Below, one piece after another: positions 20,546-33,716 of a stretch of 35,229 nt of DNA; the first letter of the stretch is position 1; each line of letters starts with the position of its first letter. Origin of the DNA: a virus; the IMG/VR virus record IMGVR_UViG_3300004460_000255, positions 1 through 35,229 of that record; one strand, 5' to 3'. The position numbers and the translations under genes are program-made. Under the pieces are notes generated by a model. That model did no database searches, was not told the DNA's origin, and saw only the letters and a program-made list of their open reading frames with translations.

Positions 20546-20884
20546 ATGCAAAACACAATTACGGGAACTTTAGTCAAGGTACTAGAGACTGAAACAGGAA
20601 CAACCAAAGCAGGAAAAGAATGGAATAAGAAAGCTTTTGTCGTAAAAACAGAGGACAAATTCCCGAAAGAGGTTTGCTTTACTCTGTTCGGAGAAAAGGT
20701 AAGTCTTATAGGTTCTCACAAGGTTGGGGATATGATAAGTACCCACTTCAATCTTTCTTCAAGAGAATACAATGGTAAATATTACCACAATATTGATGCG
20801 TGGAAAATTGATTCTTCATCTGCGTCTGCAACAGAATCTGAATGGAAGTCAACAAAAGATGAGTCTTCAGATTTACCTTTCTAA
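20546..20884 (+). CDS. SSB-like OB-fold protein, DUF3127 type (112 aa)
   Basis: Residues 1-90 match the DUF3127 pattern found in Bacteroidetes: ITGTLVKVLETETGTTKAGK, KKAFVVKTEDKFPKEVCFTL, FGEKVSLIGSHKVGDMISTH and SSREYNGKYYHNIDAWKI. This is an OB-fold single-strand-binding domain. The last residues, DESSDLPF, are acidic and end in a hydrophobic tip like the DDIPF tail of bacterial SSB that recruits repair and replication proteins, which supports function as an SSB. It is the fourth gene of the recombination operon and is followed by a hairpin at 20917. Confidence 0.82.
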   Translation: MQNTITGTLVKVLETETGTTKAGKEWNKKAFVVKTEDKFPKEVCFTLFGEKVSLIGSHKVGDMISTHFNLSSREYNGKYYHNIDAWKIDSSSASATESEWKSTKDESSDLPF

Positions 20885-20961: not shown

Positions 20962-21165
20962 ATGTCTAAAGAAAGAAAAGTATCTCAGTCAGAGATAAAC
21001 AAGAGAATTAAGCAAGTAACAATGGAAGCTGAGTTTCGTTTTAAATGCTTAGAATTAGCAAGCCCTATGTCTAAGAAGATTGAGGACTTATTGGAAAATG
21101 CTTCTGAAATTTACAACTATGCGTTCCATATAAAACCAAAGCAAGATGAATCAGATTCTAACTAA
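20962..21165 (+). CDS. Unknown small helical protein (67 aa)
   Basis: The product MSKERKVSQSEINKRIKQVT continues with MEAEFRFKCLELASPMSKKI. It is highly charged and helical, with an acidic end (KPKQDESDSN). Its end overlaps the start of the DnaA-like gene by 20 bases, so the two are probably translationally coupled. No family is recognised. Confidence 0.65.
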   Translation: MSKERKVSQSEINKRIKQVTMEAEFRFKCLELASPMSKKIEDLLENASEIYNYAFHIKPKQDESDSN

Positions 21166-21583: not shown

Positions 21584-21806
21584 ACCTGTAGTAGCTATAT
21601 GCTTAGACGATAAGTGCGATAGTTATAAAGAAGTAATTTACTTCGGAAGTGTGCGTAGTTGCGCTAAGTATTTAGAAAGGAATCCTGCGGCAGTAACAAA
21701 AGTTTGTCAAGGGGCTTGGAATACCTGTAACAAACACAAACTATACTACGAAGAAGATTACGAAAAACAATTCGGTAAGATTAACAAACAAGACTGGGAG
21801 GACTAA
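21540..21806 (+). CDS. NUMOD1-like DNA-binding protein (88 aa)
   Basis: The central part (VVAICLDDKCDSYKEVIYFG, SVRSCAKYLERNPAAVTKVC, then QGAWNTCNKHKLYYEEDYEK) follows the pattern of NUMOD1-like modules, small helix-turn-helix elements usually attached to homing endonucleases. No HNH or GIY-YIG nuclease is attached or nearby, so here it would be a free DNA-binding protein. It overlaps the DnaA-like gene by 44 bases and precedes the initiator by 3 bases. Confidence 0.6.
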   Translation: MKGLGINQKNRGYSRPVVAICLDDKCDSYKEVIYFGSVRSCAKYLERNPAAVTKVCQGAWNTCNKHKLYYEEDYEKQFGKINKQDWED

Positions 21807-21809
21807 AAA

Positions 21810-22460
21810 ATGAGCAGAGGTTTTAAGGGAATATGGATTCCAAAAGAGATTTGGGAATCTAAAGAAATGTCTATGCAAGAAAAAGTTTTCTTAGCAGAGA
21901 TTCATAGCTTAGATAACGAGAATGGTTGCATCGCTAGTAACGCTTATTTTGCTGAGTTCTTTGGACTTAGTAAATCTAGTGTTAGTAGGGTTGTATCTTC
22001 TCTATCTAAGAAAGGATTGATAGATGTAACTCTTTTGTACAAAGATAACAAAGAAGTTGATAAGAGAATTATTAGATGTAAAAAGTACGGGAACAAAGAG
22101 ATTAAGGTAATAGAGAAAGAAAAATCTATAACTAAAGTTCCGTCTATGTCTATTGATTTTGTATCTGAAATTGTTGATTACTTAAATGAAAAAGCAAATA
22201 GAAGACTTAGAGTAGGATACCCTATAAAAAAGTTAGTAAATGCTAGAGTAAGTGAGGGTTATAATTTAGATGATTTTAAACACGTTATAGATGTTAAGTG
22301 TTCTCAATGGCTAGGAACTGATTTTGAGAAGTTTTTAAGACCTTCTACATTATTTAACGCAACTAGGTTTACTGAATATCATTCAGAGAAACTAAAGGCT
22401 TCTAAAGACGTTAAGTCAGAGGAAATTACTAACTCTCAAATAGGTTTCTACGATGTATAA
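21810..22460 (+). CDS. Replication initiator: wHTH plus Phg_2220_C-like domain (216 aa)
   Basis: The N-terminal half is a winged helix: FKGIWIPKEIWESKEMSMQE, then NAYFAEFFGLSKSSVSRVVS and KKGLIDVTLLYKDN. The C-terminal half (about 120-195) matches the conserved phage C-terminal domain found in replisome organisers: VDYLNEKANRRLRVGYPIKK, NARVSEGYNLDDFKHVIDVK, WLGTDFEKFLRPSTLFNATR. Such proteins bind the phage origin and load the helicase encoded next. It overlaps the helicase gene by 8 bases. A ribosome-binding GGAGG lies at 21797-21801. Confidence 0.85.
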   Translation: MSRGFKGIWIPKEIWESKEMSMQEKVFLAEIHSLDNENGCIASNAYFAEFFGLSKSSVSRVVSSLSKKGLIDVTLLYKDNKEVDKRIIRCKKYGNKEIKVIEKEKSITKVPSMSIDFVSEIVDYLNEKANRRLRVGYPIKKLVNARVSEGYNLDDFKHVIDVKCSQWLGTDFEKFLRPSTLFNATRFTEYHSEKLKASKDVKSEEITNSQIGFYDV

Positions 22461-23879: not shown

Positions 23880-24012
23880 ATCATTAACGAGAGTTTCCTG
23901 CGTGAGTGGAGCATAACTAAAGTCCTACTGATGATTTTAATACCTTATGGGATAGGCGTTATTTGAAGTAGGCAGTCAGTGTCAAAAGTGGGTATCCCCC
24001 ACTCTTGGCTTT
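23880..24012 (+). ncRNA. Candidate structured non-coding RNA ending in a terminator hairpin
   Basis: No gene of useful length fits here. CCTAC (23923-23927) pairs with GTAGG further on (about 23968-23972), enclosing TGATGA on one side and TGAA on the other, with the inner stretch AATACC ... GGCGTTATT able to form a second helix. The stretch ends in the strong hairpin at 23981-24012. The combination suggests a folded RNA of about 130 bases. No known RNA family is recognised, and no promoter with the TAnnTTTG box is seen. Confidence 0.35.
23981..24012 (+). terminator. Strong hairpin, probable terminator
   Basis: GTCAAAAGTGGG and CCCACTCTTGGC pair over 12 positions with one mismatch and one wobble around TATCC, followed by TTT. 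It ends the transcript that includes the replication genes and the candidate RNA. Confidence 0.6.
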
Positions 24013-24120: not shown

Positions 24121-24450
24121 ATGCAGATAGCAGAGGAAGCATTAAAAGTTCTTAGGGAGTCCCAAACAACTTCCGATGAAAATAATTATATGCACGCATA
24201 CTCTAGTATGGTTGTAGAGGTTTCAAAAATGAGAGATGAATTAAACACTAAAGCAGGAATAATTGCTAACGATGTTTATGATTCTAAATTAAAAAGAGTT
24301 GAAGACTTAGAGCGATGCTTGTTGTTATTCAACGAGTGTTATTTTAAGATGATGTACTACAAGCAGGAAATGGTTGCTAACAAGTCAAAGTTAGTTAGTA
24401 AAGAACTTGAGTTTGTTAATTTTGTTACAAAACATATAGATAGTGAGTAG
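24121..24450 (+). CDS. Unknown helical protein (109 aa)
   Basis: The product MQIAEEALKVLRESQTTSDE continues with YMHAYSSMVVEVSKMRDELN, then SKLKRVEDLERCLLLFNECY. It is mostly helical and probably a coiled coil. It overlaps the MazG-like gene by 8 bases. No family is recognised. Its place before a nucleotide-pool enzyme suggests but does not prove a metabolic role. Confidence 0.65.
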   Translation: MQIAEEALKVLRESQTTSDENNYMHAYSSMVVEVSKMRDELNTKAGIIANDVYDSKLKRVEDLERCLLLFNECYFKMMYYKQEMVANKSKLVSKELEFVNFVTKHIDSE

Positions 24451-24757
24451 TATAGAACAGAACGTAGTTCATAAGATTTTAAAGCGAGCAGACTTAGGTA
24501 AATCTAAATACGGAACTACTATGGAGCGAGTTGATTTAAGTGGCTTAGAATGGCTTATACACGCTCAGGAAGAAGCTATGGACTTATCTGTATACCTTGA
24601 AAAGTTAATAGAGCTTGAGCAAGAATTGTTATTAGCAAAAAAACTTATAGATGAGGAACAAAAGAAAAAGCCCTGTAAGAACTGCCGCTGTGAAGGCGGG
24701 ATTTCGGAGTGGACTAGAACATCGAGTTTGGAAGAATTTGATTCAGAGAAAGGTTAA
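24443..24757 (+). CDS. MazG-like nucleotide pyrophosphohydrolase (104 aa)
   Basis: Residues of about 10-60 show the all-helical MazG-like pattern: KRADLGKSKYGTTMERVDLS, GLEWLIHAQEEAMDLSVYLE. The EExxD metal-binding motif is in QEEAMDL. This type hydrolyses NTPs or dNTPs and is common in phages. The start is GTG 24443, overlapping the preceding stop. The last 35 residues, with CKNCRC and an acidic end, share DNA with the start of the endonuclease gene in another frame. Confidence 0.7.
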   Translation: MSSIEQNVVHKILKRADLGKSKYGTTMERVDLSGLEWLIHAQEEAMDLSVYLEKLIELEQELLLAKKLIDEEQKKKPCKNCRCEGGISEWTRTSSLEEFDSEKG

Positions 24758-25067
24758 AGGTGCTGCCTACGAGCCTATAAAGATTTCATACGTTATCCCC
24801 CTGAGTGAACACTCTTATACCCCCGATATAGTATTAGCCAATGGTATTATATTGGAGGTTAAGGGTCGTTTAGTAAAAGCAGATAGGGATAAGCACTTAT
24901 TAATCAAAGAGCAATACCCTAATATAGACCTTAGATTTGTATTTCAGAACGCAAACAATAAGATTAGAAAGGGCAGTCAAACGACTTACGCTCAATGGTG
25001 TGAAAAAAATGACATAAAATGGTGCGAAAAATTAGTACCTGATAGTTGGCTTAAAGAGAAAAAGTAG
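24651..25067 (+). CDS. T7-type endonuclease I, Holliday junction resolvase (138 aa)
   Basis: The catalytic set of the T7 gp3 family is complete: FRSGLE (E23), YTPDIVL (D59) and IILEVKG (E69, K71). Further family motifs are KHLLIKEQYPNIDLRFVFQN and KGSQTTYAQWCEKNDIKWCE, and the C-terminal LVPDSWLKEKK. The enzyme cleaves branched DNA, resolving junctions made by the recombination proteins before packaging. ATG 24651 puts its first 107 bases inside the MazG-like gene; GTG 24690 is an alternative start nearer the conserved FRSGLE. Confidence 0.9.
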   Translation: MRNKRKSPVRTAAVKAGFRSGLEHRVWKNLIQRKVKGAAYEPIKISYVIPLSEHSYTPDIVLANGIILEVKGRLVKADRDKHLLIKEQYPNIDLRFVFQNANNKIRKGSQTTYAQWCEKNDIKWCEKLVPDSWLKEKK

Positions 25068-25075
25068 TATATTTG
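25046..25075 (+). promoter_or_regulatory. Promoter upstream of short RNA
   Basis: TTG (25046-25048), 19 bases and TATATTTG (25068-25075) match the Bacteroidetes consensus as closely as the recombination promoter. It lies at the end of the endonuclease gene and points into the 75-base stretch that ends in a terminator. Confidence 0.75.
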
Positions 25076-25080
25076 AATAT

Positions 25081-25155
25081 TCCCTGTTTATCTCTGCATT
25101 GTTTGTTTGGTTAGAGACTTAGTAGCCCTTGCGTTTGCAGGGGTTGCTTTTTTTT
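25081..25155 (+). ncRNA. Candidate small RNA or attenuator leader, about 75 bases
   Basis: A consensus promoter lies just before it and a strong T-tailed hairpin lies at its end, with no reading frame of any length between. Transcription from 25081 would stop near 25155. The 5' half (ATTCCCTGTTTATCTCTGCA, then TTGTTTGTTTGGTTAGAG) is unstructured by eye. The next gene has its own promoter box after the hairpin, so this can be an independent small RNA. An alternative is an attenuator controlling the phosphoesterase. Confidence 0.5.
25124..25155 (+). terminator. Intrinsic terminator (9-bp stem, T8)
   Basis: AGCCCTTGC and GCAGGGGTT pair over nine positions (two G-T wobbles) around GTTT, then GC and eight T residues at 25148-25155. 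It sits between the short RNA promoter and the phosphoesterase. Confidence 0.8.
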
Positions 25156-25165
25156 ACTATATTTG
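25134..25165 (+). promoter_or_regulatory. Second promoter, directly at phosphoesterase start
   Basis: TTTG (25134-25137), 20 bases and TATATTTG (25158-25165) match the consensus. The ATG lies only 4 bases after the box, so the transcript would be almost or fully leaderless. The -33 element is inside the terminator hairpin. Confidence 0.65.
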
Positions 25166-25169
25166 TTTT

Positions 25170-25901
25170 ATGGAAAAACAATACAGACCTCGACTATCTG
25201 AATTTGAATGGAGTTTAATTAAAAAATCTAGAGAGTCAGAATCCCCATCAACAGGAAACGTCTTAGTTATAGGAGACATTCACGAACCTTTTTGTATAGA
25301 CGGTTATTTAGAACATTGTAAAGAGCAGATGCGAAAGTATCAATGCTCTGAAGTTGTGTTTATAGGCGATATAATAGACTCGCACTACTCTAGTTTCCAT
25401 AGGCAAGACCCTGACGGATACGGAGCAGGAGAAGAGCTAGAAAGGGCTATAGATAAGATACAAGCGTGGTACAATGCCTTCCCAATAGCAAAGGTTTGTA
25501 TAGGGAATCACGATGCAATCGTTAGACGTAAGGCTTTTGATAGCGGAGTATCTAAGGTTTGGATACGGGATTTCGATGAAGTTTTAGGCGTTGAAGGTTG
25601 GGATTTTAAGGAGCATCACAAAATAGGTGGAGTTCTTTATGTTCACGGAACAGGAACTTCAGGTCGTAATGCTGCAGCAGGAAAGTCTTTACAGTTTGGT
25701 TGCCCCGTAGTTCAAGGGCATATACACACCGAAGCTTCAGTTATTTACAACGGAGGACATTGGGGTATGCAAGTAGGATGTGGAGTTGATAGAGACTCTT
25801 ACGCTATGGCTTACGCAAAGCACTTCGCTAAGTCTTATAAATTGGCTTGCGGAGTTGTCCTCAACAACGGGACTTTACCTGTAGTAATTCCTTTTACTTA
25901 G
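25170..25901 (+). CDS. Calcineurin-like metallophosphoesterase (243 aa)
   Basis: I start at ATG 25170 (MEKQYRPRLSEFEWSLIKKS); the open frame upstream covers the terminator and the promoter. Motifs follow the family: VLVIGDIHEP (D36, H38), VFIGDIIDSH (D67), IGNHDAIVRR (N113, H114), VLYVHGTGTS (H159) and VQGHIHTEAS (H184, H186). Two metal ions bound by these residues hydrolyse phosphoesters. In phages such enzymes may act on nucleic acid ends or cyclic nucleotides; the substrate here is unknown. The stop overlaps the end of the opposing late arm by 8 bases. Confidence 0.87.
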   Translation: MEKQYRPRLSEFEWSLIKKSRESESPSTGNVLVIGDIHEPFCIDGYLEHCKEQMRKYQCSEVVFIGDIIDSHYSSFHRQDPDGYGAGEELERAIDKIQAWYNAFPIAKVCIGNHDAIVRRKAFDSGVSKVWIRDFDEVLGVEGWDFKEHHKIGGVLYVHGTGTSGRNAAAGKSLQFGCPVVQGHIHTEASVIYNGGHWGMQVGCGVDRDSYAMAYAKHFAKSYKLACGVVLNNGTLPVVIPFT

Positions 25902-32649: not shown

Positions 32650-33693
32650 TTACTTATTAAAAATTTGATTTGCTAATTCATCCCAAGCATTAGGGGTTTT
32701 AGATTTTTCAACTATTTTAGGCTCGTTTTCAGCTAAAGTAACTGAGGGTGTAGCCTCTAGTCTAGAAATTCTTTGAGCCATAGTCTCAAATTGAGTTTTA
32801 AACTCTTCCTTAGATTCATTTGACTTTTCTTTTTGAACGCTTAGTTTCTGAGATAAAGAATCTCTTTCTTGAGTCAATGCTTCTAATTGAGCCTTTAAGT
32901 CATCTACATTAACAGCCTCCTCGGTTGCTACTGATTCTGTCTGTGCGGCAGGCTCTGCTTGTGCCGCTTCTTCTGCTTTACCTACGATTAGGTTTTTGAT
33001 TTCGGTAAACCAATTTTTCATAGTTTCTTCGTTCATTTTACTCTCTGTTTTTATTTCTTCGTTTCCGAAGGTGGTTAATATATCCTCTGCTGTTTTGTTT
33101 TCGAAGCCACTCATATCGTACTTAGCTACAATTTCCATTTTACCTGATATGCTATCTACAAAGCCCATCTCTTTAGCTTCTTCAGCACTAAGCCAAGTCT
33201 CAGCTTCTAGCATAAAAGAAATCTTTTCTTCATCTAAACCTGTTCGTTTAGAGTACACATTAAGCATAGTCGATTCTACTTTCTCTAAAGCGTTTACTTG
33301 TCTTCGCATTTGAGACTTATTACCAAACACATTACTCATAGGAGAATGAATCATAAATAAGCTGTTAGAAGTCATTTCTATGGTGTCTGCTGCTAAAGCT
33401 ATTACTGTAGCCATAGATGCCGCCAAACCCTCTATTTTTGCCGTTACTTTACCTGTATAGTTTTTTAACGCTGTATAGATTGCTTGCCCTTCGAAAACAT
33501 CTCCACCTGTACTATTAATGTGGAGGGTAATATCTTTACCTTTCAAGTCTTTAAGGTCTTGCAAAAAACTTTTAGCAGTAATTCCGTGAACACCTATTTC
33601 ATCATAAATGAAGATGTCAGTAGACTTACCTTTAGCTTTTGCCTCTATTGGGCTTATAGCATACCAAGACTTATTTTCATAGATATTTTCCAT
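32650..33693 (-). CDS. ClpP-type prohead protease with C-terminal scaffold-like tail (347 aa)
   Basis: Residues 25-185 are an S14 serine protease of the phage ClpP type: ITLHINSTGGDVFEGQAIYT, then GLAASMATVIALA (S93), SLFMIHSPMS (H116) and AETWLSAEEAKEMGFVD. After about residue 220 there is an Ala/Glu/Gln-rich region and a coiled coil (LKAQLEALTQERDSLSQKLS, FKTQFETMAQRISRLEATPS), looking like a built-in scaffold. It cleaves capsid precursors inside the prohead. The capsid gene follows after 24 bases. It has a TATATTTG box just upstream. Confidence 0.9.
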   Translation of the reverse strand: MENIYENKSWYAISPIEAKAKGKSTDIFIYDEIGVHGITAKSFLQDLKDLKGKDITLHINSTGGDVFEGQAIYTALKNYTGKVTAKIEGLAASMATVIALAADTIEMTSNSLFMIHSPMSNVFGNKSQMRRQVNALEKVESTMLNVYSKRTGLDEEKISFMLEAETWLSAEEAKEMGFVDSISGKMEIVAKYDMSGFENKTAEDILTTFGNEEIKTESKMNEETMKNWFTEIKNLIVGKAEEAAQAEPAAQTESVATEEAVNVDDLKAQLEALTQERDSLSQKLSVQKEKSNESKEEFKTQFETMAQRISRLEATPSVTLAENEPKIVEKSKTPNAWDELANQIFNK

Positions 33694-33697
33694 AATA

Positions 33698-33705
33698 CAA
33701 ATATA
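33698..33705 (-). promoter_or_regulatory. TATATTTG box upstream of prohead protease
   Basis: An exact -7 consensus box, TATATTTG, ends 4 bases before the ATG, so the transcript would be leaderless or nearly so. No TTG -33 element is visible at 19-20 bases. A promoter here would drive protease and capsid genes separately from the tail genes. Confidence 0.45.
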
Positions 33706-33716
33706 GTTAATTAATT

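Follow-up and report, generated by a model that had tools for sequence, protein, structure and literature searches.

Most of the small RNAs known from bacteriophages belong to phages of enterobacteria and vibrios, and frequently they affect lysogeny or host genes. The antisense RNAs that control plasmid copy number, such as CopA of R1 and RNAI of ColE1, are cis-encoded and fully complementary to their targets, and many plasmid copy-control RNAs act on a leader or a primer and not on an initiator AUG. Among phage RNAs, P22 sar and lambda OOP are short (68-77 nt), have their own promoter and terminator, and pair as antisense RNAs with the phage mRNAs of ant and cII, respectively, sar blocking translation initiation of ant (PMC12197685). 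Lambda PreS (∼88 nt) acts in trans on host dnaN and needs Hfq (PMC12197685). The Vibrio RNAs OppZ and CarZ are autoregulatory and derive from 3' UTRs (PMC7398697). In the Bacteroidota, Bacteroides GibS and Flavobacterium Rfp18 are intergenic, terminator-ended RNAs with sigma-A-type promoters (PMC7366714, PMC9723704), and Bacteroides are without obvious Hfq and ProQ (PMC7366714). In the literature that we searched, mainly open-access, we found no phage RNA from Bacteroidota, and none acting on a phage replication initiator in the manner proposed below.

The locus described here lies in the 35,229-nt virus record IMGVR_UViG_3300004460_000255 (IMG/VR), positions 1 to 35,229, the whole of which was analysed and is referred to as the window. 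We consider it likely, from comparison of related sequences, that this locus encodes a small antisense RNA which acts in trans to repress translation of the replication initiator made by the phage itself. Such an RNA would resemble sar and OOP in size, in its own promoter and terminator and in pairing with a phage mRNA, but its gene lies at a distance from the target on one and the same strand, it would pair imperfectly and in two parts, and it would be directed at a replication initiator and not at a lysogeny regulator. It would resemble CopA and RNAI in limiting replication initiation in proportion to copy number; however, cis-encoded antisense RNAs of the CopA/RNAI and OOP type lie on the strand opposite their targets, whereas here RNA and target are on one strand at different loci. 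As with PreS, the RNA would act in trans on a replication gene, but one belonging to the phage itself, in hosts that are probably without obvious Hfq. There is also a likeness to OppZ and CarZ in that an RNA encoded at the end of a gene block would feed back on an upstream gene of the block, although a promoter of its own is predicted for the RNA described here. GibS and Rfp18 share the phylum and the general architecture, but are cellular RNAs with other targets. If our reading is correct, a Bacteroidota phage would here direct a small RNA at its own replication initiator, with RNA-mRNA co-variation across lineages backing the target; the timing of replication in such phages could then be tested concretely, as could base-pairing RNAs in a phylum that has no obvious Hfq or ProQ.

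Gene content and phage group

The window encodes a terminase, a head protease, an exonuclease, a replication initiator, a helicase-like protein, endonuclease I and a phosphoesterase, and no tRNA was found in it. The cultured relatives nearest to its genes are mostly flavobacterial phages with single genes only in common, and the phages that carry the unit described below are a marine family with probably flavobacterial hosts. The gene for endonuclease I, of the Holliday-junction resolvase type (24651-25067, plus strand; Pfam Phage_endo_I, E 1.4e-49), lies directly 5' of the RNA unit in every phage that has the unit. In the window the unit is followed by a gene for a calcineurin-like phosphoesterase (25170-25901, plus strand; PHROG 221, E 2.8e-43; Pfam Metallophos). 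The predicted target mRNA is that of the replication initiation protein (21810-22460, plus strand; PHROG 428, E 1.5e-36; Pfam Phg_2220_C, 5.3e-23, and HTH_36, 2.5e-8), which is encoded 3.3 kb upstream of the RNA on the same strand.

A predicted small RNA between endonuclease I and the phosphoesterase

The initial annotation of this region had proposed a promoter, a non-coding stretch, a terminator and a second promoter, and all of these are present between 25045 and 25170 on the plus strand. Promoter 1 has a -33-like GTTG (25045-25048) inside the endonuclease ORF, a 19-base spacer, and the -7 box TATATTTG (25068-25075) directly 3' of the stop codon TAG. The -33 element falls on the TTG of a Ser/Ala-Trp codon pair and is under coding constraint, so that its conservation is not independent evidence; every variant keeps the -7 box as TAnnTTT[G/A], 2-3 bases 5' of a conserved block. 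The non-coding stretch (25076-25120) is followed by an intrinsic terminator (25121-25155) with a stem at 25121-25148 (12 pairs, loop of 4) and then Ts to 25155. Promoter 2 has its -33 TTTG (25134-25137) in the loop of the terminator hairpin, a 20-base spacer and a -7 box TATATTTG (25158-25165), then TTTT and the ATG at 25170; the overlap with the hairpin and the four-base distance to the ATG are confirmed as first annotated. A consensus scan of the window likewise picked up the terminator and the two promoter-like pairs.

The promoter consensus of Bacteroidota is TTTG, about 20 bases, and TAnnTTTG (PMC7366714). In the window this -7 box is over-represented (83 occurrences against 48.7 expected), as is TATATTTG (12 against 3.3), and E. 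coli-type promoter-like matches are not above chance (49 against 49.6). Because flavobacterial sigma-A -7 boxes span -12 to -5 (PMC9723704), we place the predicted start of promoter 1 near 25080, at the 5' end of the conserved block, and that of promoter 2 on the A of the ATG, position 25170. The phosphoesterase mRNA is accordingly predicted to be leaderless, close to the nearly leaderless mRNA of the initial annotation, which the position of the box and its conserved spacing support; leaderless mRNAs make up ∼5.5% in the flavobacterium of PMC9723704.

The predicted small RNA (25079-25155, plus strand; ∼77-78 nt) is conserved from its predicted start to the terminator, and its fold is more stable than that of shuffled sequences (z -4.5). 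From 5' to 3' it consists of block 1, AUUCCCU (25079-25085), a variable spacer, block 2, AUCUCUGCAU (25090-25099), a variable flank with lineage-specific hairpins (UGUUUGUUU in the window, 25100-25108) and the 12-bp terminator hairpin. Conservation is concentrated in the two 5' blocks, beginning at the predicted transcription start. Some variants fold part of block 2, and the middle hairpin differs between lineages, so a single consensus fold was rejected and no shared helix is claimed there. The strong conservation of the unpaired 5' blocks suggests a pairing function.

Conservation of the unit in related phages

Using the phosphoesterase as query we located 38 related loci, from which 21 relatives (L005-L025) that are at least 80% identical and include sequence further upstream were chosen by the phosphoesterase alone, with no RNA pattern imposed. 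The unit lies directly upstream of the phosphoesterase in 19 of the 21; in the remaining two (L018 and L020) a diverged unit stands behind the endonuclease with another gene next. Altogether, related IMG/VR contigs contain about 20 sequence variants of the unit, and in every one of them the same endonuclease I gene is the immediate upstream neighbour. The distance from the TTG of promoter 2 to its -7 box is 20 in all 18 distinct variants despite insertions and deletions in the loop, the box itself varies in these only as TAnnTTT[G/A] (TAACTTCG in an additional variant, L067), and 4-8 bases separate it from the ATG in 17 of the 18. Pairing of the terminator helix is kept, with one compensatory change. 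A covariance search of relatives, suggested in the initial annotation, recovered the RNA in 10 of 10 related phage contigs (model R1; two at weak E-values), and weak matches elsewhere (L092 326-402 and others) were rejected as a hairpin behind an SSB gene or opposite-strand palindrome matches. The short independent RNA that had been proposed is supported by this conservation of promoter boxes, hairpin and RNA, and the view that such packing is unlikely by chance is borne out, the decisive evidence being the conservation in relatives.

Searching through the endonuclease revealed clade B (L090, L091 and L103), which has the promoter, TTATCCTGTTGTGCTTCTCTGCATATCG..., the terminator and the second promoter, with a DNA methyltransferase gene following the unit, between it and the phosphoesterase. 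The methyltransferase is of the C5 type, named from its translated start and not from a family search, and appears to use promoter 2. L112 contains a more diverged copy of the unit, and the RNA was not found in more distant endonuclease relatives. By these comparisons the RNA is tied to the upstream endonuclease gene, and the predicted promoter 2 serves whichever gene is next; the nested terminator and promoter form a compact layout kept across the clades.

A pattern search that demanded both blocks exactly gave 43 matches, about 20 of which are due to chance, and its true members all lie between endonuclease I and the phosphoesterase; our statements on conservation rest on the phosphoesterase- and endonuclease-based sets and not on this exact-pattern set. 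No relevant family was found in Rfam (15) at gathering or relaxed thresholds, in keeping with the initial annotation, which had recognised no known RNA family. No homologous RNA was found in phage records, and the exact RNA pattern had no match in 84,980 cellular species genomes.

The initial annotation had also allowed for a cis-acting attenuator, and an attenuator or riboswitch in which the 5' block and hairpins govern read-through into the phosphoesterase would have the usual layout, in which a terminator-containing leader precedes the gene; moreover, UGCAGGG in the terminator offers a possible pairing partner for CUCUGCA. However, the unit precedes a methyltransferase gene in L090, L091 and L103 while staying with the endonuclease, and is therefore not a phosphoesterase attenuator by linkage. 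Promoter 2, with its fixed 20-base spacing, would serve the downstream gene without read-through. Where a GC pair of the terminator became AU the 5' block did not follow, and the antiterminator pairing was rejected, having no support from co-variation. The block furthermore matches the start of another gene, with co-variation, and we regard attenuation as very unlikely.

It is similarly improbable that the region holds only the terminator of the upstream operon and the promoter of the next gene, with no functional RNA and with the block kept for another reason such as a DNA-binding site. The terminator does stand after the last gene of a block, and promoter 1 does overlap the end of an ORF. 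Against this, the two blocks and the -7 box are conserved at a fixed distance while the middle part varies, and the complementarity and co-variation with the initiator start described below would not be expected.

Complementarity to the start of the replication initiator gene

A search of the 5' half against the phage genes, as the initial annotation had suggested, identified a conserved target in the beginning of the replication initiator message, at 21810. The predicted site (21800-21832, plus strand) takes in the start codon and the first eight codons, and its duplex of -30.0 kcal/mol ranks first of 69 gene starts in the window. The duplex is bipartite. Block 1 is complementary to AGGGAAU at 21826-21832, block 2 to GCAGAGGU at 21814-21821 and to the AUG at 21810-21812, and the variable flank pairs, and co-varies, with the bases immediately 5' of the AUG. 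The pairing bases are the conserved bases of the RNA, and the variable spacer between the blocks forms an internal loop in the duplex.

In a duplex scan of ten phage genomes, the initiator start is at or near the top in several. Set against every ATG start of an ORF of at least 50 aa in the respective genome, its ranks in six clade A genomes are 1/69, 2/61, 2/71, 1/63, 1/44 and 1/51, the better-ranked site in the 2/71 genome being the RNA's own antisense; these energies ignore proteins and kinetics. Composition-matched shuffled RNAs reach the energy of the initiator duplex in 0-12 of 1000 cases in clade A, and cofolding brings a gain of -16 to -28 kcal/mol. Pairing is weak in the clade B genome G004 (-21.8 kcal/mol, rank 4/67, cofolding gain -9.6 kcal/mol, reached by 71 of 1000 shuffled RNAs). 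The support for pairing covers clades A and B, and none was seen for the diverged RNA of L112 with its initiator.

When the 52 gene families that occur in four or more genomes are compared, the initiator comes first by a margin (mean log10 p -2.55), followed by a 109-aa gene (24121-24450, plus strand; mean log10 p -1.85), the start of which is a possible second target with a weaker and less consistent signal. This second conserved target, together with the fact that several phage RNAs act on host genes (PMC12197685), leaves some room for an RNA that acts mainly on host mRNAs or on several phage mRNAs, the initiator being one or a minor target, or for a pairing that activates. The co-variation is with the initiator start, however. 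Activation also sits poorly with the general observation that pairing over an AUG usually blocks translation initiation, and we consider these variants unlikely, although less so than those dismissed above.

Co-variation of the RNA and its predicted target

Both sites are strongly conserved and rich in A and G, and the complementarity might be no more than a by-product, arising from an A-rich leader and from conservation of the protein start MSRGFKGIWIP. However, initiator homologues that keep MxRxFKGIWIP in phages without a recognisable RNA mostly lack the complementarity, pairing with the 21-nt core of the RNA mostly at -7 to -17 kcal/mol, against mostly -19 to -24 kcal/mol for the initiators of clade A phages; a few homologues without a found RNA (for example L257, L265 and L272) pair fairly well. 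Furthermore, bases upstream of the AUG, which do not code for the initiator, co-vary with the RNA, and there is little to recommend the by-product explanation, which we hold to be very unlikely.

The base beside the AUG and its partner in the RNA are U-A, A-U or G-C according to lineage, the co-varying segments of RNA and target being CAUUGUUU with AAACAAUG, CAUAGUUU with AAACUAUG, and CAUGGUU with AACCAUG. The G-C case was joined from two contigs of the same lineage that overlap by 628 nt at 98.7%. In clade B the region is rewritten into a perfect 12-bp helix between CAUAUCGUGUUU of the RNA and AAACACGAUAUG of the target, joined from two non-overlapping contigs of one sample that are likely to come from one phage. 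Mismatches occur in three places: A.A beside the AUG in the c008012/c030085 lineage, G.A one base further from the AUG in the window, and A.C in c020470.

When partners were permuted among 12 lineages, the cognate sum of -332.6 kcal/mol compared with a permuted mean of -292.4 (sd 9.7), and was reached by 3 of 200,000 random re-pairings (208 of 200,000 without clade B); common descent couples the alleles of RNA and target without on its own giving preference to complementary ones. As a prediction from sequence, the pairing of the RNA with the initiator start is well supported.

A proposed role in replication control

By its predicted anatomy the RNA is a trans-encoded base-pairing small RNA: it has its own promoter and intrinsic terminator, as judged from sequence and conservation, it is encoded 3.3 kb from a target to which it is partially complementary, and it has a conserved seed that co-varies with that target. 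What the comparison of relatives brings out is that the unit is conserved, that the RNA is complementary to the initiator start and that the two co-vary, and the following scheme is built on these points. Host RNA polymerase would transcribe the ∼78-nt RNA from promoter 1, the transcript ending at its own terminator, and the 5' region would base-pair in trans with the translation start of the initiator mRNA, blocking ribosome access and repressing the initiator. Read-through from the early genes may also supply the RNA, and mRNA decay may act beside or in place of the translation block. Promoter 1, to judge by its sequence, would need no phage factor, and because it looks host-type the amount of RNA should increase as genomes accumulate and so exert negative feedback on replication initiation. 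We infer repression rather than activation from the position of the pairing over the AUG, and the feedback logic and its timing remain conjectural in the same way. The loop of the terminator would double as the -33 element of promoter 2, yielding a leaderless mRNA for whichever gene is next. More tentatively, the RNA may form a plasmid-like antisense brake, by which the phage would gauge its own copy number through an RNA that shuts off translation of the initiator and perhaps also of the 109-aa gene at 24121; we see this as possible, somewhat short of probable.

Other features of the window

Near the start of a 67-aa gene at 20962, CAGAGATAAAC (within 20962-21020, plus strand) has eleven perfect matches to GUUUAUCUCUG of the RNA; this match is mostly kept in G001 and not in the other phages. 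A non-coding stretch between two small genes (23885-24010, plus strand) begins TAACGAGAGTTTCCTGCGTGAGTGGAGCA and shows nothing unusual in folding energy. Similar pieces occur in the same gap in L244 and elsewhere in G007 (∼20,600-20,650) and G005 (∼670-690), and in L244 the element is followed in that gap, within the last 1200 bases, by a tRNA-like sequence (GTAGGGTGGTGGAATTGGCAGACACGC...CCCTACA).

The box TATATTTG is also found at the head maturation protease gene (32650-33693, minus strand), where it ends 4 bases before the ATG (33686-33710, minus strand). Since this promoter box and a gap of 4-7 bases to the ATG are kept in about 10 relatives, the head maturation protease mRNA is likewise predicted to be leaderless or nearly so.
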